A DNA stretch of 64,000 bases. Origin: Chrysoperla carnea. Its lineage: Eukaryota; Arthropoda; Insecta; Neuroptera; Chrysopidae. Below the pieces are notes generated by a model, which saw only the letters and a program-made list of their open reading frames with translations, made no database searches and had not been told where the DNA came from. The stretch is taken from NCBI RefSeq assembly GCF_905475395.1, contig NC_058339.1:54507172-54571171 (forward strand), read 5' to 3'. Position 1 is the stretch's first letter, and each line of letters begins with the position of its first letter. The position numbers and the translations under genes are program-made. Shown one piece after another: positions 26,280 through 52,230 of the stretch.

Positions 26280-29200
26280 TTAAAATGAATACATCATGGC
26301 CAAAATAACATAAATAAAAGTGTACAAAACAAATGATAATCGATCAATAGCCGTGGCAAATGAAAGCCAATCTTGTTGATAATTCTTCTTTGTGGAACCA
26401 CTTGAAATCATTTGATGATCATCGTTTCCAAGATGTTCATCAAAAACAATCGACGAATGTTCTTTTAATTCTTCAGCATTAACTCGATGTGACATTAAAT
26501 TCTATATGGTATAAATTTGGAATATTAATACTACATAAAGAATTTAAAAAAAACCGAAGAATCTTTATGAAAAATTGACTAGGAAAATATCCCAAAATCA
26601 AGGTTTTCAATAAAAATTCTTCAAGGTGTTTTTTAGGAAATACTCACCTGACTAGATATTTGAAGACTTAATATTCGGCCTAACCAACCGGTTAGTAATT
26701 TTTTTATGAACCATGGTAAGTTAGTATTATGTTTTGTTCTTGAAATATGAAGAACAATTACCGAAATAATTGTTGAAAAGCATGCCAGGTAAAGATTATT
26801 CGTGAAAAACAAAACTGTAAATAGTAAAAATAATTTTAAAATATAGTATTCAATATTCCGTCAAGATTTTATATTCAACGAAATCCATGACTAAAATTCA
26901 TGACGTAATATAAAAAACTCAATATGACGTTTTATCCCATGTGTCTAATAATAGCTCTCGATAAATATGGCAGGGATGGCGAACCAATGGCACCTGATAC
27001 AATATTTGGCACGCCACCGGTCACAAATTTCATGAAGTCTTATATTACGAACGAACGCTATGAGTGATTCTATATCTAATATGAACGATGTAGATGTACG
27101 AAGGCAAAAATTGATTCTTCTGCGAGATTTTCTCAGTTCAAAGAATTATCGGAAAAAAGTTTATTTATGTCATTTGATAAACTGAACTTGTCCCAATTCG
27201 ATGGGTTGGAAATATTGAAGAATTTGAAACGCAGCTAATTGATTTTGCTGATTATTTTCAGAGCTGAGAAACGTTAAAGACTCGCTTAGAAACCGTTTTG
27301 ACAAATGACTCCAGTTCAGCATGCATTCTGTCAAAAGTAACATCTTAAAACCCTAATATAAATTATTTGTCATCTAATCTGCAATAACAGAAGACACACT
27401 AACTGAGATATTGCGAAATGTGTTTTTTTTGTAGTAGTAGTAAATAAAGACTTTTATTATTATTATTCCAATAATCATGAAATTAAAATTATTTGTATGT
27501 TAATGGTCTCAGTTCATTTTTTTTTTTTAAATGGCACGTTGTTGCAAAAAAAATTCGCCATCCTTGCTATATTGGGCTATGTTAATATCTTTCGCAGTAA
27601 ATTTACTCAAAACTTAATGCTATTGTCATTTTTTTTCATTTCTAAAAGTTAGTAACTCCTGGTTACTACGTTAACTTACTGACTAAAGGTGTATGAAGAC
27701 GAAGAGGAGGTATTTTATGAGTTAAATACATTAAAATTAAACAATTGATGACAGCAACACACCCATTCAGTAAAATTTTTTCACCAGCATGAGAGGGAAG
27801 CCAAAATGTGGATAGTGTCATAAAAACAATAGCTGAAAATAATACATTATTTTCAAATTAGTAAAAAGAGATTTTAATTTTGTTATGGGCTTTGTTATTT
27901 TCAGTTTAAAGTGATCTGCTTACGCTTGCGCTCTTGGTATTTACTTTAACAATAAAACAAACATAGATATGGGAAAATTATAAGGAAACCGCTCATTCAA
28001 TACTACTTAATTTCTATGCAGTATCACATTGAATTCGTGAGCAGTTAACTTTTGTGCAATATTAGCCAACCCTTTTAGGTATAAACATGATTTTTACACT
28101 TACCAAATGCGGGTGTAACAATAATGGCTCTGTACGTTGGAGAGTTTCTAACTACAGTAAAATTATAAGAAATATGAGGATATGGTTCTTCACAACACGC
28201 ATATATAATATTTTTTCGCACTTTCCGTAGTTTAGTTAGCTGCCATTCTGTATTTGATATAAGTAATTCGATCTAAAATAAATAGGTAATTAAGTATAAA
28301 TTTGATTAATTTTTTTAATATTAATTACATAAAGTGTCTTAAAAAAGTGTTTGCCAGTGACACACATTTTGAGATAATATGTACGTACCTCACTTGAATT
28401 CCCATCGGACATTTGTAAATCGATTTGATTACCATCATACGTCCATGATCCCATTTTTAATTCACATAATTGTGTGTCAAAGGGCCAATATCGAAAATTT
28501 AGATCACAAAAGACATTAAATTGTGATGGTGGTACCCAAATAACATTGCCATCATTACCAACAAGGGAATGGGTGCTGCCATAATGATCAATACTATTTC
28601 CATCGGCACCATTGTAAACAACAACATCAGGCTGCCAAATTTCATGATCGGCTAAACGAATTATTTTTACACCACCATAATCGGATGCATTCCATTTTAA
28701 TTTCTCATCCAACCATGTCTAAAATTTCATTCTACTATAAATTTTTTTTGTGAGCAAAGAAGAAATCGATTATCTTATCTTATCTTATATATTTAAACGA
28801 GCAATTCTTGTATATATATATTTGGAATCTCGGAAACGGCTCCAACGATTTTCATGAAATTTTGTATGAAGGGAATTTTGGGGGCAATAAATCGAACTAG
28901 CCACTTTTTTTTTAGAAAAAGTTCCTTTTTCTCGAAAAAAACACGATTTACCAAACAAACAAACAAAAAATTCCCAAAAAAACACGATTTACAAAAAAAA
29001 ATATATAACGTACAAAGCTCGTTCATTCAGGGGCTTTACATTAAATTAGTTATTCAATAATCTTTAATTTGGTAAAGTGTAAACAATTTAAAGCGTCAAG
29101 GGATTTGAACAAAATTTGTATTTTGACTTAGTATAAAATAAAGAATAAAACCATAAAAAACGCAATTAGCCCACGGCATATTTATGATATAATCTATGTA

Positions 29201-34592: not shown

Positions 34593-37193
34593 TGTTTGTA
34601 TGAAATAAAAATGTTGAAAGCAATTTATATATTCAAATGATCATCATATTTCATAATAATGTATAATATAGAGTACATACAATTTTATTGTCAATAAAAA
34701 CAACTTGCTAACATTATTTAAGGCGGATGTTCGTTATCTTCCCACTTTATATAATTCTTTACTTCTATATTAATCACAATTTATATATAGGGCAAGATTA
34801 CAAGGATTATGTAAACCCCGCTACTAGGCAAACCTGGGAAACTGCCTAGAACGCCAGGATATATGGGGTGCTAATTCTTCTGATAATTATTAAATTAGTA
34901 GCATTACACTGGCCTCAACACGGTCAATATTTTTGAAGCAATATTATTGATTCAATTGATGGTGAAATTCGGGTGCTCTTTCACGATTTAATGATATAGG
35001 AACCAGGAATAATTTAATATTAGGATCATATTTATGCATGGGGAAAGACTAAAAAGGCTCTATAAGGCTCCTGAATGAAAATGATCCAGTAACATTTAAG
35101 TTATAAATTTTGTTGTCGTAGGTATATTTATAATGCAGTGAATTCGTATATTCACAATGCCGCAACTGCCACGGTTTTTGTACACAAAACTAGTAAACAT
35201 GAAAAATATTTTAAAAATTGAACATTAAGAGTATATATCTCTCTTGAGATCCCATATACCGGATCATGAAAGAATTTGTATGCAAGTAGTTTCAGGTCGT
35301 GATTTTCTCCCTATGCCCTTAGGTGTATGACTGTTGCGTGAGCAGCTAATACTTTTTGGATGCAATCATGGAAGTTGTGTGATGTAATAACATATTAACT
35401 GTATTATTTAAATGCAAGCACGCATTTAGAGAGGGGCAATTTACTCCTCCAAAAAAGTAGGGAAGTTAACTATTGTAGCTTTCGGATGCTTGTAGCTAGA
35501 ATAGAATATCTAAAAAATTTTGGGATATTTCTTGATTTTTTCAAAAGAGTAGGTAATGACTCGAAAATATAAAAGTCAGATTATTTTGTCAATTGATTTG
35601 TTTCTGAGATATTGACTAAAATTGTATACGAGGACTGATATATCCCAGTTATCCAGTTTCTGGATATTTTTAGTTGATATCCAGAAACTTGCAATTCTTT
35701 AGAAAATCAACCAAATTTTCTTGTCTTTCGATTATTGTTAAGTATGCTAGTAGTTTCTGAGACATGGAGTAAAATCTTAAATAAGGCCTGATATTTCTTC
35801 AGTTGATGCCCAGATGATTTTACTGGCTAAAAGCAACCACATTTTCTTATCTTTAAATTATTTAGGGTAAGAAAGATCCTAAAATCATAAAAATTCAGTT
35901 TATTTAACGATTAGATTAGATTAGAAATATTCTTAGAAATATCTCCAGAATTGTTTGCAAAAAAAGCTTCTTGTAAACGCTTTTAGACGATATCTCAAAA
36001 ATTATGCATCCAATCGTTAAATGAACCCGATTTTTATACTTTTTGAGTCAAAATTACCTAATATGTATAGTTTCATCAAATTCCGAAACAAAAACTTTTG
36101 CTCGATTTTTTTAACTCTTAAACAAAATTGCAAACAATCGGAAAATTCGATTAGGATAAAAATCATTATCTAGAATAATTTTGATCCAAAAAATAGAAAA
36201 TTTGGGTTCATCTAACAATTGGACTAGTAGTTTTTGAGATATAAACTAATCGTACATGATGAATGATATATCAGAGCAATTTCTTCAGTTAAATTTTGCC
36301 GTTCAGTAGCAAAATAAAATTTTCGCAAAGTAAAGATCCAAAAACATTAGAAAATAGAACTATAAAGAGCATGAAAAGTATAAAATTATTAATTACTTTA
36401 AAAACGAGCATGGAAATTTTATATTGCTCTTACAAAAAATTTTCTGGATACGCGCTTGAGATGAATCTATTAAAAACGAATATATATGATTATTTAAATT
36501 TTATATATATAGGGTGTCCCATTTTTTCAAATTATTAGTAATTATCTTAAAAAAATGTATTATGTAAATATTCTTAAGATCTACATAATCATTTTAGTAA
36601 TATTTTTAGTATCGAAATTTTTTTTCTAGCCTTTCCAGAAAACTTTCATTCGATACAAAAGAGATAGTTTTCTAAATTTATTTAGTCAAACAAATTTTTA
36701 TTTAGCTACTCACTTTATTAAGATTAAAAAAATAATAATATTTTCTTTATCTCACGCAAATTTTATCCAATTTTAATTTTGAATTAGGGGAGCGGAGGCT
36801 GGCAACAGGCAAGGACAAACATACATGATGACGTAGGAACTATTTAGGTCTGTTGGATCATTTGTCTAACTTCGAATTTTTTACTCAGTTACGTCATCAA
36901 AAATCCATAAATTTTGAATTTATAGGTAATACAAAAATTAGACATTGCGCCAGAATTGCTAAGAAAAAATTTCAAAGAAATGCGTCGCTCAATTAAGATT
37001 TTCCACTTCATTATTTAAAATACCTACGTCTTCCTCGTATATGAAATACGTCTTGGCGCCTGACCTATAAACATTTTTTAAATTGATAAACAAAATAATT
37101 TATTTGACAATTTTTAAATTATGACAAATTTTTGACAATTTTTATAGAAAATATTAAGTATTGTATTATTCAAAAGATTTGAAGACTAAAAAT
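34593..37193. other. Divergent intergenic region (receptor / HSF2BP)
   Basis: This 2.6 kb lies between the divergent start codons of the receptor gene and the HSF2BP-like gene. From about 35480 to 36230 it carries a repeat with phrases such as 'tagtttctgagacatggagt' and 'gtttcatcaaattccg' that recur at 52380-52800. A lone 'agggtgtcccattttttcaa' at 36510 resembles one end of a mariner MITE. No gene is recognised. Confidence 0.5.
35480..36240. repeat. Dispersed repeat family R3, copy 1 (internally repetitive)
   Basis: The block 'tttcatcaaattccgaaaca' with a preceding 'aacccgatttttatactttt' matches 52670-52770 in the same orientation. Within the copy, the theme 'atttttgagatat' and 'ttttctt.tctttcgattat' recurs several times, suggesting degenerate internal repeats. 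Its class is unknown. Confidence 0.5.
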
Positions 37194-40100
37194 ATGTGTA
37201 CAAACAAAGAGACAATAACTGCATTCATCTCAAAATCAATACCAGAATTAACACGAAATGCTCGTGCAAAAATATCGGAACATAGTAAAAATGATCTTAA
37301 TGAATGTGATATTCGCTGGGAATTACATAATAAAAAAATAGAATGTGATAAAGCTAATGAACAAATTCGGGAATTACAAAATAAAATTGATAATTTACGT
37401 ATTGAATGGCGATCACAACAAGAACATTTAGGGAAATTAAATCAAGAGTATATACAATTACAACAGACACTTGGTGAACATAGTATTTACTGTGCAACAT
37501 TAGGTATTCTAAATTATCCTTTTATTACTCATAATTAAGAACTTGATATGCAGCCCATTGCATACAAATCCTAACCATCTGGTAGAGGAGCTGGTAACAG
37601 AAATTTTCGCACAATTTGAGCAAAGTTTATCGAATGCGCTGACCCCATACATGAGTATGAAACAAAAAAATTTCTTTGTTTACTGAGTTTTGGAGGATCA
37701 ATTATCAGCACTAGTTGCTGTGTTGATAGGCCACTTTATAGTCATTTCCGGTCTGAACAAGCTGCAAACTCCAGACACAAAAATTTAATTCAAAAAGCTT
37801 TTCAGTTTTTTCTAAATGATAAAAACATTGTATTGGTATCTTTTCAAGCTTCTCAGGCACAGTGCTTTTAATAAAACCTCGCATATTAATTTTTAAACTG
37901 GGGTACTGTGGTGTTAACAATTAACCCAACAATATAAATAAGCTGTCGTTATAACAATACAATATAAACAACCCGACGATATATTCATTCAACGGCTCAC
38001 ACACATACAATACAACTAGAATTCTAAAAAGAAATAAACAATATCGTTTTATACTACTTAAACAGAAATAGAAAACATATACAAGTAAAATATATGCAAT
38101 AGAACATACGTGACAGTTCTAGAATTTGCTTGACTGTACGGTAACAATTGATAATTGATTGTAACTATATAAACAGCGCACAGTGTGCGATACCGTCAGA
38201 TTACAATACAGACTCTTCAAGTTAACTACAGTCAAGTTTTATCATCTATCAGAATAACATTAAGTAAAAGTATTGTGAACTATACTTTTTTATTACACAA
38301 ATTTGATTACGTTAAGCCAAGAGTACAAATTAAATTCTAGGTGCAACAATGGGTAGTTTATTATGGAAAGTATCACGACTTGATGGCGCAATTGAAAGTA
38401 TGTTAGAAAGTAATCGTATTAATCAAATGCTTATAATTATGGATAATTCATTAAAAGCATTTATTGAGGTGTTTGGCCGTGATATACCTGATCCATATGG
38501 TAACGAATATCAGTTTGTATTATCATGGATGGGTATTCTAACAAATATAAGTGCATGTCCAGATGGACGCTACTATTTACTTAACAAGTGTGAAGGACAA
38601 CAGTTGATCACAAATTTGATTGATAGTGTACAAAAATTGACACATCATAACGGTAATTAAACAAATTTAGCGGCTTAACTGCAAATATGTAATTTAGTAT
38701 TTTTTTCTGTGAAGATTGGTAAAACCCTTGTGAAAAAAATATTTGAACTAGGAACTCTGAATAACTCTGAATTTCTAAACGTTTTTGGACTGTCTAATTC
38801 AGACGGAATAACTCTGAATTAGGCAGTCCAAAAATGTATAGAAATTCAGAGTTCCAAAGACTTTTTCAATGTTTCTAAGACTTTTAAAGAGTTTTTAAGA
38901 CAATTATTAAGGCTTATTCTTTCGATATCTCATAAACTTATAGTCAATCGCAAATCAAACCAAATTTTCGTGTTACATCAATTTTTTCTGGTTTAGGAGT
39001 ACTATTGCAGCGTATGATATTAATGATTTTATATAACTTAATGATCAATGCAAATGGTGTAATATTCATCCAAAATCATACCGAATTTACATCAATATTA
39101 AGCAAAACATTATTGAATTGTAAAGTTGATAAAGAAATACAAGATTTAATTTATAAATTAATATATGCTCTAACACAAAATATACCAACATGTCAGTATT
39201 TAAAACATCTAAAAGAAACCTTACCATGGGGCCATATTGAAACAACCATATGCGATAGACAATCACCAAATCAAGATATTGCAAATAAAATTAAAATCAA
39301 TTGCAAAAATATGGAAAATAAAATACAAATGGAAAAACTATGGAATAATCGACCAGAGGAATTAATTATTGGTATGGCGTTAAATGTGCCATTAACTTCA
39401 ACAACGAACGTAACAAATAAAAAATATGAACCATCACAAAAAATTTCAGCACATACATTTGTAAAAACACCGTCAAAAAGTTCAATACATTCTTCGTCTG
39501 AGAATGTTGATATGAATAATGCTACAGTGGCAGAAAAAACTTATTTACCAGACTTAAACTTCTCTGATCAATCACAGGCGATTAATTTTTGTTTGTGGGG
39601 AGATAGAGCCGCAAAATGGAATAAAGGTGAAATTGATAAGAATGTACAAACGTAAGTAAAATCAACTTTTAGCAACCTTTCAATCATGCATGGCAGATTT
39701 TTAATAATGTAAAGCCATGCAAGGTTTTTAAACTTTGGACTACTTAAAATATCGAGTATCTGAGACAGATTTCAGTTTACTAGCTCTCAAATATTTCCAC
39801 TTATTTTCTTATAGCAGCTATGTACAAATTGATTGATTGATTATTAATCTTGAACTCATTGAATAGACCAACTACAATCACTTCCCAGGTTCTCGCGCGG
39901 GGAGAATGTTTCTTTTGAGATTGCTTTTTATATATTACCACTCAGATATTTGACCACTCCCATTAAACATTTTACTCAAACGCTATTGCGACGATAAACA
40001 TCGTTTTCGGTAGGTACAAATTTTCCTAAGTCGAAGTTTTAAATCGAATATTTACGATTTTTTTCAACCGTTCCTGGCCAGTAATTTTATATGACGCATA

Positions 40101-41052
40101 TTGAATTGTTTCAATAGAATAATCATGCTGAGATTAGTTTGATCTATTTGCCCACCTCATTAAACGGTTGACTTAAACGCTATTACGAAAAATATAACTT
40201 TTTCATTTTTGATTTTAAATGAATGATTATTGATTAAAGAAATTTTGACTCTAAAATGACAATCGGATTTATTTAAACATAATGCGAGTCTCCAAGATAT
40301 AACTTTGTCAGTTCATTTGATTTTAATTTTGAACATTGATATATCTCGAGAATCAAGTACGGAAATGATTTTTTTAGCCTTGTAGTATCGTTTTCACCAA
40401 GGTCAAATTAGCCTAAAGTTTTCGTGAAAATAAGAAACATCTTTTAAATCATAAATTATTCTTGAGGCTTACAAATGTGTGCGTACAATAATGGTGCAAA
40501 GATCAATCCTACCCTGACACCATTAGATATATAATAATTTATAAAAAAATATATATAATATGTATAATTTGTTTCATAAATAGTAAAGTTGCACAAAGAA
40601 ACTCGTACAAATTAGAAGACGATGACCTTCCTAGAAATACAGAATGTATTTTCGCAAAAAATATTACACTCACTGCAAATATTGTACCTTGTGATGATGA
40701 CACAAATCCAGTAAATATGAAACCTAATAAGGATACAAATATGAACATCAAAATAATAGCTGCAACCGAAAAGCATAATGAAGGTGAAACCGAATCTGAG
40801 AAACAAACACATAATACTGAAATTTCAACGGATACAAATAAATTACTGTACACAATAAATCGTATAATGACGACTTCAACTGAAAACTATATTTCTAAAT
40901 TAGAAGTTGATTCAGATTTTATAGTAGAGAATTCCGTTGAAAATGCGATTCCAGAATGTAATGATCAACAATATTCACCTGAATTGAAAAAGCACAAGTA
41001 TCATTGTAAACATCTTTGTTCGAAAAATTGTCAAATATGTTTAAATAAATAA
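37194..41052 (+). CDS. HSF2BP / MEILB2 homolog (meiotic BRCA2 localiser), C-terminally extended
   Basis: Four exons join in frame: 37194-37503, 38341-38652, 38997-39651 and 40584-41052. They give 581 residues. Residues about 45-100 form a heptad-rich coiled coil. Residues about 104-300 follow the armadillo-like domain of vertebrate HSF2BP. Matching landmarks are YCATLG-ATMGSLLWKV, YQFVLSWMGILTNISA, DGRYYLL and LLQRMILMILYNLMINANG. In vertebrates this protein binds BRCA2 and brings it to meiotic double-strand breaks with BRME1. Human HSF2BP has 334 residues. Here about 280 extra residues follow, mostly polar and low in complexity, ending in a cysteine cluster CKHLCSKNCQIC (Cys567, 571, 575, 578). 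Exon 3 begins at 38997, not after the closer 'gcag', because only that restores GVLLQRM. Polyadenylation signals overlap the stop codon. The HSF2BP assignment is strong for residues 1-300; the role of the tail is unknown. Confidence 0.85.
37504..38340 (+). other. Intron 1 of the HSF2BP-like gene
   Basis: 837 bp between the coiled-coil exon and the armadillo exon. A minus-strand frame at 37711-37920 has no recognisable domain. Around 38160-38310 there is a TATA-like 'taactatataaacagcgcac' followed by 'cagattacaatacagactc', which looks like a promoter or a degenerate LTR, but I could not establish element ends. Confidence 0.35.
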
Positions 41053-41185: not shown

Positions 41186-41285
41186 ATAAAATTATTTTAC
41201 TTTCACTTAACAAATCTATAAATAAGACGTATGGAATAAAATTATTTTACTTTCACTTAACAAATCTATAAATAAGACGTATGGA
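41186..41285. repeat. Perfect tandem duplication, 2 x 50 bp
   Basis: The 50-base unit that starts ataaaattattttactttca and ends agacgtatgga is repeated exactly at 41186-41235 and 41236-41285. It lies about 130 bp past the stop codon of the HSF2BP-like gene, in its probable 3' flank. Exact identity points to a recent duplication. Confidence 0.9.
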
Positions 41286-41794
41286 ATTTAATTTTCTTGG
41301 TATGAAAAACTCGGTGATGGATACGCTGTTTCCATCGATGCTTCAGCAGCATTGGTTAATCTGGCCTTGTTCTTCTAATTTTTACGCAGGCGAGAATTAA
41401 ATCTAACAATCAAAAAATTAACTTTGATTTATCACCAATCCAAAAATTTTGATTCTGCTTGTATCACACCCAAATTTTATCCTATTTTAATAAACCAAGT
41501 ATGTAATCCCGCTAATTTTGGGCCATACTTTTCTAATTTCTGGTCAAATTTATAGTTACTGCAATAATTTTCAAAATTTAGCTACCATGGTTTCCACATT
41601 TGGCCCAAAGGGTTGTATAAAAGACTCACTAACAAAAACATGGAAAGGACGACCCAAAATTTGTATATTACAAAAAAAAATTTGAAATCCAAAAATTTTG
41701 ATTATGCATTTTACATGCATATATTTATATATAAAAGATATTGATAAGGTATACAGATAATAATAATTTTTATTATTATAATCAACCCATTCTT

Positions 41795-43264: not shown

Positions 43265-44608
43265 TCATTCATGAGATTTTTTATGTCTATTTAAGGTATG
43301 TTTTTCGGTGAATGTTTTCTTGCAAACATCACATGAATATGGTCGTATTCCTGTATGAGTTCGTTGATGTCCTCTTAAATGATGTTTGTGGGTAAACTTT
43401 TTACCACAAACATCGCAAGAAAAAGGTTTTTCACCCGTATGAATGCGTTGATGTGCGGTTAACACATTGCGTTGGGAAAATGTTTTATTGCAAACATCAC
43501 AATGATGAGGTTTCGCTCGACTATGCGTTCTTTGTCCAATTTCCTGTTTTTCATTTTTTATTATTAATTTTGATGAAAATTGTTGTCCAGTTTCAAAGCT
43601 TCCATTTCCAATTGTTAATTTTGATTGTTGTCCATTTCCCATGTCTTCAACTTTACTAAAAACTTCACTATCTACTTCAGAATTACTTAATTCAGACTTT
43701 TCTTCAAAATGAATTCGCTGATGTCGAACTAAAAGTTGATATTGAGTAAACTTTTTTTGGCAGATCTTGCATGAAAAAGGTTTTTCTCCAGAATGTATCC
43801 GTTTATGTGTAATTAATGTGACTTTTTGGATAAATGATTTATCACAGATATCACACGAGTATGGTCTTTCGCCCGTATGAGTTCGTTTATGATAATGTAA
43901 ATTGGTTTTGTTAAGATATCTTTTGTTACAAATATCACAAGCAAACGGTTTTTCACCCGGATGATCACTTCGTATATGAGAAATTAAATCAGTTTTTCTA
44001 TTAAATTTTTTATCACAAAAATCACATGAAAATTGTTTCTCACCAAGGTGTGTTTGTTTATGTTGATATAAATTACTTTGGTGGCCGAATTGTTTGTCAC
44101 AAATGTCACATGAAAAAGGTTTTTCTCCTGTATGAATTCGTTTGTGTCCAACTAGGTGGTGATGTTGGGAAAATGTTTTATCACATACATCACACGAAAA
44201 TGGTCTCTCTCCCGTGTGAATTCGTTTATGTCTTTTCAACAGATCTCGACGGGAAAATGCTTTATTACAAAGCTCACATGCGAAACATTTTTCAGGGTAG
44301 CTTTCAGTAAAATTTTGTACATGTTCAACTGAAACATTGTCTTCTATTGTTTCATTTTTAATAATTATTAGCTCAGGATGAATTTGTTGTTCTATTTTTA
44401 TGTCTTCGTCTTGGATGATCAACCCTGTATGAATTTGTTGTTCTATTTGGAAGTCTTCGTCTTGAGATATCAATTCTGTATAAATTTGTTGTTCTATTTT
44501 TATATCTTCCTCTTTGATCAATTCTGTATTGAATTGTTGTTCAATATTTATATTTTCAATTTTGTTGAACACAACATTATTTAAATTATGATATGAATAA
44601 TTCGACAT
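43265..44608 (-). CDS. C2H2 zinc-finger protein with ten fingers
   Basis: One uninterrupted exon encodes 447 residues. Seven tandem C2H2 fingers run from about residue 108 to 305 with TGE(K/R)P-type linkers. A linker of about 60 residues follows, and then three more fingers run to the C-terminus. The fourth finger has an extra residue before its last histidine (HIRSDH). The N-terminus holds four copies of a 17-residue repeat (residues 21-86) with the core IEQQI.TELI.QDED. In it the IKIE and IIKNE segments fit the SUMO-attachment pattern psi-K-x-E. No ZAD, BTB or KRAB domain is visible. It is most likely a nuclear sequence-specific DNA-binding regulator; no ortholog can be named. An intronless gene with polyadenylation signals just after the stop could be a retrocopy or simply a single-exon gene. 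Start chosen: the ATG at 44608, the first in the frame. Confidence 0.92.
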
Positions 44609-44811
44609 TTTATTTATTTTAATTCACAATGTTCTTTACATGAATATTGGTAGTGACAGCTAACCTCTCACTTTGGCCATTTTATTTTTACCTTCAAAAT
44701 TATTGGGTTTGTAAGAAGTACTTGTAGATGTCAGCAGTTTTAAAAGTAATTGAATACCACAGACTAAGATTGAATGTAGACCGATTCAACCCAATTTTCA
44801 ACTAAGACTGG

Positions 44812-46262: not shown

Positions 46263-49200
46263 ATGGGTGATAAGGTAACACAAAATTCTGCTTTTTAATA
46301 ATACAAATTTTAAATACATGTATGTATTTTAGCCGTTAAAAGGATATAAAATTACTGACTCTGAGAGGAAACAAAAAATTGGTATTGCTGCAAAAAGTTT
46401 AGATGATTTAAAAGATAAAACACTAAAAAAATTAAAAACAAACTACGGGGTAAATTTTTTATTGTTTTATAAATTATTAAAATCAATATCTATCTATAAA
46501 TTTTATTACTTTTTTAGAATTCGCCAGTGCCAAAAAACATATATTTTCAATTGGTTGATGGAACCATTGTTGATACTGAACAATACTTTCAAACACTTCC
46601 ATCACAAACGACACTAGTGTGGGTTGAGGAAGGCAAAGTCGCAGAAACTGGTAAATATAATTTAAATTATTATTAATTCAGGAAAATTGAACACAAAAAT
46701 TGAATTGATGTTTTGAAAATAATTTTTCATAAACAAAATTTTAGTTAATAGTACGAAAGATAAAATTTAATAATCGATTCGAAAAAGTTAATTTTATATT
46801 CGAAAATTATTTTATAACTTATAATCGAAATAATTATTTTATAATCGAAAAAAGTTAATTTTAAACTAGAAGAAAAATTCAAAAACAAAAAAATGCATAT
46901 TTTATGAAAATTTGATACTTAATAGATTTCAATATATAGTGTGTCCTCGGATAAAGGTAACTATACTTATACGTAAATTTCCTTATTTTGCATTTTATGA
47001 AAAAAAGTCATTCTTTATAAGAAGTTTTGCTTATTCTGAAAAGTGTGTAGTGTATATTTAAAACTTCTTAATAATGTACAGGGTAGCCAAAAATTTGGAA
47101 TCACTATTTTTATTTTTGGTAAACTACCCTTCTTTTTTATAAGTTGGCGAAATGTTACTAAGAAAAGTTACTCGCAATTAAAAATTATGACTATATACAA
47201 AATATCAAGAAGATCCGAGTACTTTAATTATAGCATCATTTTTTATTTGAACAAAAGCTCTAATTATAAAAAAACGTAAGAAAGAAAATAATAATAAATC
47301 AATGAACATGTACTATCCGAGAGTATAATTTTTTGTGGACTCGTTTAGAAAATTAAAAAGAAAATTTATTATCTCGGATAAACATTCAATAAGAATGGAA
47401 TTGTCTAAGTTGGAAAGATCTTCTTGATATTTTGTAAAGAGTCATAATTGTTAATTTCGGGTAACTTTTTTTAGTAACATTTTGTCAACTTTTAAAAACG
47501 AAGGGTAGTTTAGAAAAAAAAAACAAATAGTGATACCACATTTTTTGCTACTCTATACATTATTTAGAAGTTTTAAATATTCCTACATACTTTTCATAAT
47601 AAGCAAAACTTCTTATAAAGAATGACTTTTTTTCTTAAAATGCAAAATTTACAAGTATAGTTACCTCTATCCGGGGACACACTGTATATAGTATATATAA
47701 ACACTTAAATAAATTAAACAATATATTCAGTAGAAATAGTTACTATAAAAATTACATTTATTCCGGAATAAGGTATTTTCCGAAGAAGTATGTATGTTTA
47801 TAAGAATATTTTTACGGTTACCTAAGTTTCGCTGGGCAATTTCATTTTAATTTCCTTGGACCCCTCTCACCTACTTAATCCCCTAAGAAAGCCATTGTAC
47901 TCCTGAAACTTTAATATTATTTCAGCTTTAATCTCTTCCCCTTAACCCAAGGGCGGATAAAAAATTTTTGCACCCGCAGACGGTTTCAAAAAGTAGCGCC
48001 CCCCGTAATAGAAATCGATCAAATGATTTTTTTTTTTTTGGTCTTTTAGTTTCAAGTTCTTTATTTCTTAAAACCTGTAAAATCGCGTTGGTTGTTCTAG
48101 ACAGTGCTCTGGCTCGAGCTATGACTGTTAAATAAGAACGTAGATGAATACATTCATTAAAAAAGCATTTTTGTAAATTACCAGAATCTTTACTAACATA
48201 CTTGCTCTATTTAGAACTACTCCAGTGTTCAAATTGATCAAATTGCTTAAATGCGAAAATTTACTGTAAAAATTGCTGTAAAATTATCGTCCCTTTTAAA
48301 ATTCAACCACAAATCTGTCTATAATTATTAGATATACTCTCACTCTGAATGTTTTCTGACCAGATAAAGAAGAAGTAATATCTTCGTCAGATTCATCTGC
48401 TGTGAGCATTCTCTTTCGTATCCTCTTTGTGTCCTTTTCATATTCTTGGACTGTTGAGAGTTCCAAGACTGTCATACATTTGAATAACTGCACAAATGTC
48501 AATATAGACTGTAATTTTTTGTATACTTACTATTTAATTAACTGTATATTTTTTTTAATAGTTCCACGCGCGCACCCCTTTGTAAACTCGCGCCACTAGG
48601 CTCTTGCTTATTTTGCCTTATGGATAATCTACCTCTTCCTTAACCCCCTAAAGAGGCAAGCCTTTATACACACTACATACAGACAGATATTGTTCTCTTA
48701 TAATAAACCTCGTAAGTGGAAACTCAGCATAACGTCAGGTAAGCGAAAGTAAGCAAAATGGTTGTAGGATTCAAATTTTGAATCTAATAGTGACCTGGAA
48801 AGTAAATTTTGAAGCTCTTTCAATATGAATTTGTGTTTTTGAAGATTTTAAGAAAAACTTATTTACACATTTCAGATGCGGAACGTTTGTACAAAACAAT
48901 ACGGGAAGTCAACATTGAATACATAACTGCCGGTACCAAAGTACAAGATTTTGTGATGAACGAATTGAAATCGAAAATATACAAACTAGCTGATAATTTT
49001 AATAAAAACGACCAGCATGATAAAATATTGTTGAGTTCAAGGCTTGAACATCCAGATTGGTTTGAGGGTAAAATTTGTTGCATTGTTTTTATTATTTTAA
49101 AGAAATAAGCACATTATTTATTTTACGTTTATCACACCTAAAACAAACAAAAAATCAATTCAGGTTTAAAATATTAAACTTATATCGTAATAATCCATTA

Positions 49201-52200
49201 ATCTTAAAATGGATATTTTATTAAAATGAAATATATATTAGAAAAATTGTATTTTTATAATAGATATTTATAATTGTTAACAAAATAATTAACAATAATT
49301 AATTTTTTAACGCTTATTCAAGACCTAGGATCTAGCAACAAGATTCTTTTACAAAAGCCGTCGTGGATTATACGTCAGCTGCTTACTTTCCGTAAAATTG
49401 ATTTCCATTTATTTAAAAATATTTGCCTATATTTTTAACAAATGAAAATTATCTTTTTCGAAAAGTAAGCAAATGATGTTTAATACATTGCATTATAGTC
49501 AGCTGACGATTATTTTAATATTCTATATGGATTTATCATGAGCTACTATTTTTTTAATTAACGCAATAAAAAAAGGCATAAATCGAATCTCTTATAGACA
49601 ATCTGGATTTGAGATTTTTTAATAAATCGACGGTCATAACTTAACAGAAGGGTATCACTCAAAATAAGTTGTATAATTTGAACAAAGACATCAAAATTAG
49701 TAACTTTGAATTTGATCTTGCTCTAATAAAAATACTCCAATATATTTCCTTTTGAAATATATAGGATCTTCATTCTGATCCAATCTCGATCAAAATTTTG
49801 AATTGGATTGTACACAGATATATAAATAATTTTTTACTTCAATCAAGTCAATTCATGTTCCAGTCATGATGTTCCTTTTAAAATAATAAAATTTTTACAT
49901 ATTTATATCTGAGCAGATATTCTGAGGAGTTATTTCCGTGAATCGGTTAAAACATCCCTAATTATATGTCATTAATGGACATTGATAAGCGAATGTTTAT
50001 TCTTGACATCGATTTTTATCAGTAAATATTATACTCACTTGCGATATTAGTAGTTTTAATTTTTTGTAATTTTATGTTTCGATATTCTTCTGGAATTCTC
50101 AGACATAAGCCAATTGAGCAGATTGCTTTCTTGATTTGCATTATTTATGTTGTGTTCGAAAGAATTGAAATCTGATTTTTTCAGTCAGAACATTTGGTCT
50201 TGCAACTAAAATATAAAGATATTATAAAATAGACGTTGCTTAACTGTCGTAAAAGTTTTAGTACAAATAAATGTTTAAATTTTCTTAGCTTGTTCTTGTT
50301 TAAAAATAGATTTGCCATTTATTTTCTTGATGTAACCTGGAGCGTGCCTCCATTTTTAAGCCAGTACCTCCAATAATATTAAAAATTGAGCGGCTCATTG
50401 AATTAAAAAAAAATAATAAAAAATAAATAATACCGATTAACATGCAGTGAACAGAGGAGGTGGAATATTCTTCTCTAACAGGTTGGATAGTCTACATTGT
50501 AGTGTAATCAAGTTACAGCTTGTTTGTTTTTAGTCTATATATTTGTTAAATCATTTTCTTTAGGAATTTTTTTATTGTATAGTCTTCTTGGTGTAAAAAA
50601 TACCCCTTCGACAATAAAAAACAACTTCAGTTTTCCTTAAAATAGTACCTTAGTGACAGAAATGTTTATTATATTATTAAGTTTTCATATAATGATTTCT
50701 CATTAATGTAATAATATTGCCTAAATTTTATAATAAATGATATAGTATGATTTATTATTATTTATTAAAAATTATGGAATTTTAACGCTAAGATGTCAGC
50801 CTCACGAGGCAAAAAAATGTAAAGCATGCTTGTTAGACTAAGCTGATTTTTTCATTGAATGAAAAGACAAAAGATGTATCATATTTATAGTTACATATGT
50901 TATCTCTGGCACACATACTTTGAAATTTTAAGTTTTTAAACTTTTAAGCATTCTATTTTTACTTTTTATATCATGTGTACTAAGTTTAGTCCCAAGTTTG
51001 TAACTCTTAAAAATATTGATGCTATGAAGAAAATTTTGGTATAGGTGTTTATAAAATCATCTAATTAGTCCATTTCCGGTTTTCTGTCGTTTGTCCGCCT
51101 GTCATCACGGTAACTCAAAAACGAAAAGAGATATCAAGCTTGTAAACCGTTAGAGATAGAACAAAAGTTTAAATGTAAAAAATGTTTCTTATAAAAAAAT
51201 AAACAACTTATGTTTGAAACATTTTTTCGTAAACATCACTGTTTACCCGTGAGGGGTTAACTACTTGTTAACTATACTTTTGATATTTGATTTAAACGAC
51301 ATAGTGCCCCAATTTATAATAAAAACAATTATTTTAATGTTTCATATAGTTCTATAGGAATATTTTGCTGTCAAGTTGCTAGATACTCTTTCTAAGCATT
51401 TAAGTTCCTCCATAGTTAATATATTTATATTAATGATGAAATCATTTTTGAGAGCTCACATAATAATATAACGAATTATATGTATATATAAGCAACGAGA
51501 CGCAAAATTCGATACTACACGCAACGAATATCAATGTCTGTCTTATAATATTTTTACGAAAAAAATATCATTTGAAGTTTTCAAATTCTCAAACATAAAA
51601 ATATTAATAAACAATTATGTATTTTGATTAATATTTTTATGCGTTCAAATAATTTTTATAGGTTTAGACACAAGATCAAAAACAAAAGAAGAATATTTAT
51701 TTCGTAGATCACAGGACCGTATCCGTAATTATTATTATAAAACAAAAGATGAATTAAACAATGTCAATTCAAAGGAAATTAATAATTTATTATCATTTTT
51801 ATCAAAAGAATTAAAGAATGTTAATTATTTTGGTTGTTATTTCGATAGAAGACATTTTACAATTGGTGATACTAATTTAAAATGTTTATGTGATAAAAAT
51901 GGTTACTTTTATTGTGAAGGTAAATGGAATAAAGCAAAATGTGAAAGTATACCAAAGCATGTTATAAATCCGTATGATAGCCGTGAATCGAGAATATTAT
52001 TTCAAACATGGAATTTAGATCATGTTGTTGAACGATCTAGATCGATTATACCAAAAATAATTACAAATAAAGAGGATCATATTAATTTTCAAAAAGTTTT
52101 TAATGATTTATTTACAAAACATAATTTAAAATTAGTTCATATTGTTTGTCATGATAAACAACGGCATTTAAAAGATATTTCTGATTATAGTATTACAAAA

Positions 52201-52230
52201 AATGATGATCAAGAACTTCATTTAAAATGA
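46263..52230 (+). CDS. Caspase-activated DNase (CAD/DFF40, Drep4-like)
   Basis: Five exons join in frame: 46263-46274, 46333-46449, 46518-46650, 48876-49067 and 51662-52230. They give 340 residues; human DFF40 has 338. An in-frame ATG at 46242 would add seven residues. I prefer 46263 because MGDKPLKGYKIT fits the family N-terminus and its context (caacaATGG) is better. The enzyme cuts chromatin between nucleosomes during apoptosis after caspases remove its inhibitor ICAD. Residues about 1-80 form the CIDE-N domain (ending ...TTLVWVEEG). The nuclease domain has INPYDSRESRILFQTWNLDH, carrying the catalytic Asp271-His272 pair, and HIVCHDKQRH with His311, His315 and His320. All of these correspond to known CAD active-site or zinc-binding residues. 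The gene is complete and apparently intact. No inhibitor gene is in the window. Confidence 0.95.
46934..47689. mobile_element. Foldback element with about 300-bp inverted arms
   Basis: The outer ends are 'tatagtgtgtcctcgg' on the left and 'ccggggacacactgtata' on the right. The arms match over most of about 46934-47235 and 47395-47689, including 'aactatactt', 'aagtcattctttataagaag', 'ttactaagaaaagttactcg' and their inverses. About 150 bp separate them. TA dinucleotides at both outer ends suggest a Tc1/mariner-type origin. It lies in CAD intron 3 and would form a very long hairpin in the pre-mRNA. Confidence 0.8.
47948..48598 (-). mobile_element. hAT transposon relic with transposase remnant
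   Basis: The minus strand at 48296-48502 encodes a remnant with EYEKDTKRIRKRMLTADESD followed by KTFRVRVYLIIIDRFVVEF. This resembles the region before the dimerisation domain in ZMYM/THAP-associated hAT transposases (an F.V.V...I.D..V.E. pattern). GC-rich ends flank it: CAAGGGCGGATAAAAA on the left and 'ctcgcgccactag' on the right. The rest is deleted. No clear target duplication is visible. It lies in CAD intron 3. Confidence 0.55.
49068..51661 (+). other. CAD gene intron 4 (2.6 kb)
   Basis: AT-rich intron with no gene. The only recognised content is the R1 repeat copy at 50955-51262. Confidence 0.5.
50955..51262 (+). repeat. Dispersed repeat family R1, copy C
   Basis: It begins 'tgtgtactaagtttagtccc', passes through 'tgtttataaaatcatctaat' and 'aactcaaaaacgaaaagaga', and ends 'aaacatcactgtttacccgt'. 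The order is the same as in copies A (2655) and B (5715). Compared with those it lacks the block between 'atatcaagct' and 'tgtaaaccgtta', a deletion of about 100 bases. Confidence 0.75.

Follow-up and report, generated by a model that had tools for sequence, protein, structure and literature searches.

Does a probably insect genome encode HSF2BP/MEILB2, known from vertebrates as a meiotic binding partner of the DNA-repair protein BRCA2, and what might such a protein do with a long C-terminal tail? The question is raised by a four-exon gene on the plus strand at positions 37194-41052 of the window, the whole 64-kb stretch of DNA analysed here. MEILB2 is described by Zhang et al. as occurring only in vertebrates. 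The name HSF2BP is also attached to two insect annotations, that of a cold-responsive gene in Apis cerana (PMC5484514) and that of a member of a heat-shock gene list from Ischnura elegans (PMC4182773). These annotations share the gene name with the window gene and are likened to it by name only; the passages that carry them treat them as heat- or cold-shock genes, without sequence, domain or meiosis analysis. The sequence-only reading of this locus had held that no insect version with this tail was described, which is roughly right for the passages of the open-licence literature consulted, given that the insect annotations exist as stress genes only.

The joints between the exons all have GT-AG borders, in phases 1, 1 and 2, and the joined exons give an uninterrupted frame of 581 residues (Table 1). 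Each exon is found once when the joined protein is searched back against the window with tblastn, and the same search at E up to 1 finds no second copy of the gene in the 64 kb. By codon log-odds, trained on 1586 codons from other open reading frames of the window, the reading frame is the best of six in all five gene segments scored, while both introns scored have negative values in all frames. Judged from the sequence, the gene model is real, and the four-exon structure proposed earlier holds. The earlier claim of three exon joints within the region aligned to vertebrate HSF2BP does not hold, given that joints 1 and 2 alone fall there and joint 3, at codon 426, lies inside the tail.

Table 1. 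Coordinates of the exons and protein features of the HSF2BP-like gene in the window.
Feature	Position	Strand	Residues and content	Splice sites
Exon 1	37194..37503	+	residues 1-103 plus one base; N-terminus, probable coiled coil; starts with ATG	donor GTATTC
Exon 2	38341..38652	+	remainder of codon 104 through residue 207; ARM domain, first half	acceptor TTCTAG, donor GTAATT
Exon 3	38997..39651	+	remainder of codon 208 through residue 425, and two further bases; ARM domain, second half, then the beginning of the tail	acceptor GGTTTAG, donor GTAAGT
Exon 4	40584..41052	+	second part of tail to residue 581, and stop codon	acceptor CATAAATAG, in phase
Groove stretch 1	38532..38570	+	G168, N172, G179, R180 = human G188, N192, G199, R200	
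Groove stretch 2	39023..39049	+	M217, Y220, N221, I224, N225 = human M235, Y238, N239, I242, N243	
Tail, first part	39326..39651	+	residues 318-425; no known domain	
Cys/His cluster CKHLCSKNCQIC	41005..41040	+	residues 567-578; four Cys in 12 residues	

The window has a G+C content of 28.6%, and a compact, AT-rich gene neighbourhood of this kind is not vertebrate-like; an insect source is plausible. A perfect 50-base tandem duplication lies directly downstream of the gene, at 41186-41287. Further downstream, on the opposite strand, a 452-residue open frame at 43265-44623 encodes many C2H2 zinc fingers, as seen by eye. Exons for a nuclease of the DFF40/CAD type occupy 48806-52230 on the plus strand: the open reading frame at 48806 has a weak DFF40 match (E 0.0058), and 51628-52230 matches Pfam DFF40 (3.5e-59) and PDB 1v0d_A, the DNA fragmentation factor 40 kDa subunit (7.6e-32). 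On the minus strand, an exon at 28290-28718 encodes a nicotinic receptor ligand-binding domain (Pfam E 2.2e-36); among the best 60 of its 108 PDB matches many subunit types occur, the top ones with similar scores, and therefore the exon is not assignable to one subtype. Also on the minus strand, an open reading frame at 61165-61497 matches the Pfam family TRM, for N2,N2-dimethylguanosine tRNA methyltransferase, with an E-value of 3.2e-06, just at the curated cut-off. The window further contains exons for an aminotransferase domain, which we take to be those of serine palmitoyltransferase.

Homology of the armadillo (ARM) domain to human HSF2BP, as claimed from the sequence at first sight, is firmly supported by sequence comparison and far beyond chance. 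With phmmer, the best PDB match of the protein is human HSF2BP (7ldg_A, E 1.5e-16; 7bdx_A, E 1.7e-12), and apart from it the PDB search at E up to 1 gives autophagy-related protein 11 alone (E 0.035), matched along the coiled-coil stretch. The local alignment of the ARM domain, with 49 of 212 aligned residues identical, scores 174, and none of 1000 shuffles exceeds 61. An hhalign comparison of the two single sequences gives an E-value of 1.1e-13, and tblastn with human HSF2BP as query on the unprocessed window DNA matches exon 2 (38337-38585, E 7e-10). The ARM part of the human sequence used agrees with the PDB letters. Like human and mouse HSF2BP/MEILB2, the window protein has the homologous ARM domain, the LLW motif (human L130, L131, W132) and a coiled-coil-like stretch ahead of the ARM domain. 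The ARM dimer interface is less conserved, with 4 of 11 named residues identical to those of the human protein; the changes M-L, A-M, V-A, I-M and F-M stay non-polar, and A-T and L-N do not.

In Pfam, the full protein has no credible match (best E 0.3, from three coiled-coil or DUF models), and among the 11 pattern matches in prokaryote genome contigs, none is a relative by tblastn. AlphaFold, run without an alignment on lone exon pieces, reaches a mean pLDDT of 65 for exon 2 and 34 for exon 3, and Foldseek with the weak half-domain model of exon 2 has a best E-value of 0.29, with HSF2BP not among the best 50 of 260 matches. An unaligned half-domain is a poor test, and this modelling outcome neither supports nor refutes the ARM fold. 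Orthology to HSF2BP/MEILB2 is suggested by similarity to a single protein, the human one.

The N-terminal part of the earlier alignment fares less well than the ARM part. Residues 1-95 do not significantly match the human N-terminal region, since 197 of 1000 shuffles score as high, and the hhalign match to human HSF2BP starts at residue 43 of the window protein. Hydrophobic residues fill 5-6 of 8 a/d positions in windows starting at residues 36-71, a count made without a shuffle control. In vertebrate HSF2BP, the first part of the protein is formed by a beta-cap and the alpha1 helix, which bind BRME1 and DNA (PMC11297322). Unlike in human and mouse HSF2BP, this BRME1-docking helix and the beta-cap are not recognisable here; either they are absent or diverged or a 5' exon was missed. 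A candidate for such an exon, at 35262-35312, was found with lax settings as a 17-residue match with 9 identities (E 0.068) to a human query peptide. It was rejected as a chance-level match, given that 22 of 200 shuffled queries score equally.

The ARM groove is conserved at most of the positions named for BRCA2 binding. In human HSF2BP, changes at N192, G199, R200, Y238, N239 and N243 abolish BRCA2 binding (Ghouil et al. 2021, PMC8322138); G199 is buried and makes no contact with BRCA2, R277 and S281 are contacts, and E201 and K245 are groove residues at which mutation is tolerated (PMC8322138). All six of the abolishing residues are identical in the window protein, as in human HSF2BP, and so are W132, G188, M235 and I242 (human numbering). 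R277 is replaced by K and S281 by A, and the mutation-tolerant E201 and K245 by Y and N. Of the 12 residues named as contacts or as binding mutants, 10 are thus kept; with the two mutation-tolerant residues counted, the figure is 10 of 14. Against the background of 49/212 over the ARM domain, the chance of six in six is about 1.2e-4 and that of 10 in 12 about 9e-6, values that serve as a guide because the comparison covers two sequences and structure may be the reason why such residues are kept. The groove is best read as one for a BRCA2-type ligand, and the BRCA2 link, which was also part of the earlier reading, appears well grounded in the kept residues. BRCA2 binding and a meiotic role may be expected of the window protein.

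Both the open frame and the codon usage show the C-terminal tail to be coding, in agreement with the earlier observation that the frame stays open over two exons. None of 20000 first-order Markov sequences is as open as exon 4 over its 155 codons, and 22 of 20000 stay open over the exon 3 part of the tail from about residue 328. The in-frame codon log-odds are +0.30 for residues 328-425 and +0.265 for residues 427-581; the two other forward frames are negative, and the highest values among the reverse frames are +0.16 and +0.04, respectively. Human HSF2BP ends opposite residue 317, which leaves about 264 additional residues, unlike in the human and mouse proteins, rather than the 281 first reported; the border is approximate because the alignment of the final 57 human residues is not above chance, its score being reached by 385 of 1000 shuffles. 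The extension is judged to be new with respect to the human protein, the sole comparison.

The tail is rich in N, K, T, E and S; it is polar and probably mostly disordered. It has no Pfam match, no PDB match at E up to 10 and no heptad register above 5/8. As a repeat within the window, exon 4 has one 36-base match (49407-49442) and the exon 3 part has none. FxxA is a recombinase motif; neither it nor the recombinase motif F-x-P-P is present in the tail. The tail was also considered as a ligand for the protein's own groove, and this was rejected, given that its best BRCA2-like groove motif has 3 of 7 positions, a count exceeded by 1798 of 2000 shuffles. Any function assigned to the tail is one that we infer.

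The cysteine cluster reported for the end of the tail is present, and within it CKHLC may resemble a cysteine motif that HFM1/Mer3 helicases have close to their end. It is suggestive rather than striking, because shuffling the tail gives four Cys in 12 residues 233 times in 20000, and shuffling the whole protein does so 232 times in 5000. The proposal that the tail binds zinc or replaces BRME1 finds no positive support in the searches made, with neither a credible Pfam match nor a PDB match. The likeness to BRME1/MEIOK21 of vertebrates, compared by description, lies in a basic C-terminal end only; the tail has no detectable similarity to any PDB chain at E up to 10.

Other explanations bear on the ends of the protein and on the identity of its partner. 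It is rather improbable that the working protein ends in exon 3, with intron 3 retained, a length of 426 residues and exon 4 belonging to another isoform or transcript. The intron 3 donor is the consensus GTAAGT, exon 4 is open for its full length in the required phase and has coding codon bias, and no further plus-strand open reading frame of at least 100 residues starts between exon 4 and position 44000. What speaks for such an ending is an in-frame TAA that overlaps the donor (ACG-TAA-GT, 39649-39657), so that unspliced RNA would end after residue 426 and splicing decides between a protein of 426 and one of 581 residues. Three further in-phase AGs also flank the chosen exon 4 acceptor (exon starts at 40527, 40599 and 40635), and therefore the exact intron 3/exon 4 joint is not certain. 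With four intact exons, GT-AG joints and selectively conserved functional residues, a pseudogene or an assembly artefact is extremely improbable.

The groove may have been kept for a partner other than BRCA2 with a similar peptide, such that the protein would be an HSF2BP homolog and no BRCA2 localiser. This is unlikely while carrying some weight: the six residues kept are those needed for binding BRCA2 itself, against which stand the changes at R277 and S281 and the further partners with similar motifs raised by Ghouil et al. (PMC8322138). In mice, removal of BRCA2 exon 12 disrupts the interaction with HSF2BP and does not phenocopy HSF2BP loss (PMC8322138), and therefore a kept groove is no proof of a BRCA2-loading role. 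A further idea is that the tail stands in, within the same chain, for vertebrate BRME1 and the beta-cap, and so binds the coiled coil and DNA. BRME1 is reported to be conserved among vertebrates (PMC7188823), the alpha1/beta-cap is not recognisable here, and a basic Cys/His stretch ends the tail much as basic RKTK ends the BRME1 fragment (PMC11297322). The tail has neither a PDB relative nor a heptad register that would favour such a role, and a 5' exon could have been missed, which makes this substitution quite doubtful. The wider proposal, that HSF2BP predates vertebrates and that one chain here holds a BRME1-type DNA-binding and stabilising module as a built-in, possibly zinc-dependent tail, is speculative and of low probability.

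The favoured reading, held to be probable, is that of a divergent, probably insect HSF2BP/MEILB2 ortholog whose groove would grip a BRCA2-type motif and whose tail would act as a tether or regulatory arm. In this proposal, the coiled coil and the ARM domain would oligomerise, the conserved ARM groove would grip a short disordered BRCA2-type motif, and BRCA2 with its recombinase cargo would be placed at meiotic breaks. The tail would most likely be the tether or regulatory arm, as proposed from its basic end, two S/T-P sites and possible zinc knuckle.

The vertebrate-only statement of Zhang et al. is contradicted by a probable insect homolog in which the BRCA2 groove is intact. What the BRCA2-HSF2BP link does in mouse meiosis is currently in doubt (PMC8322138), and an older role of that link would become testable in insects.
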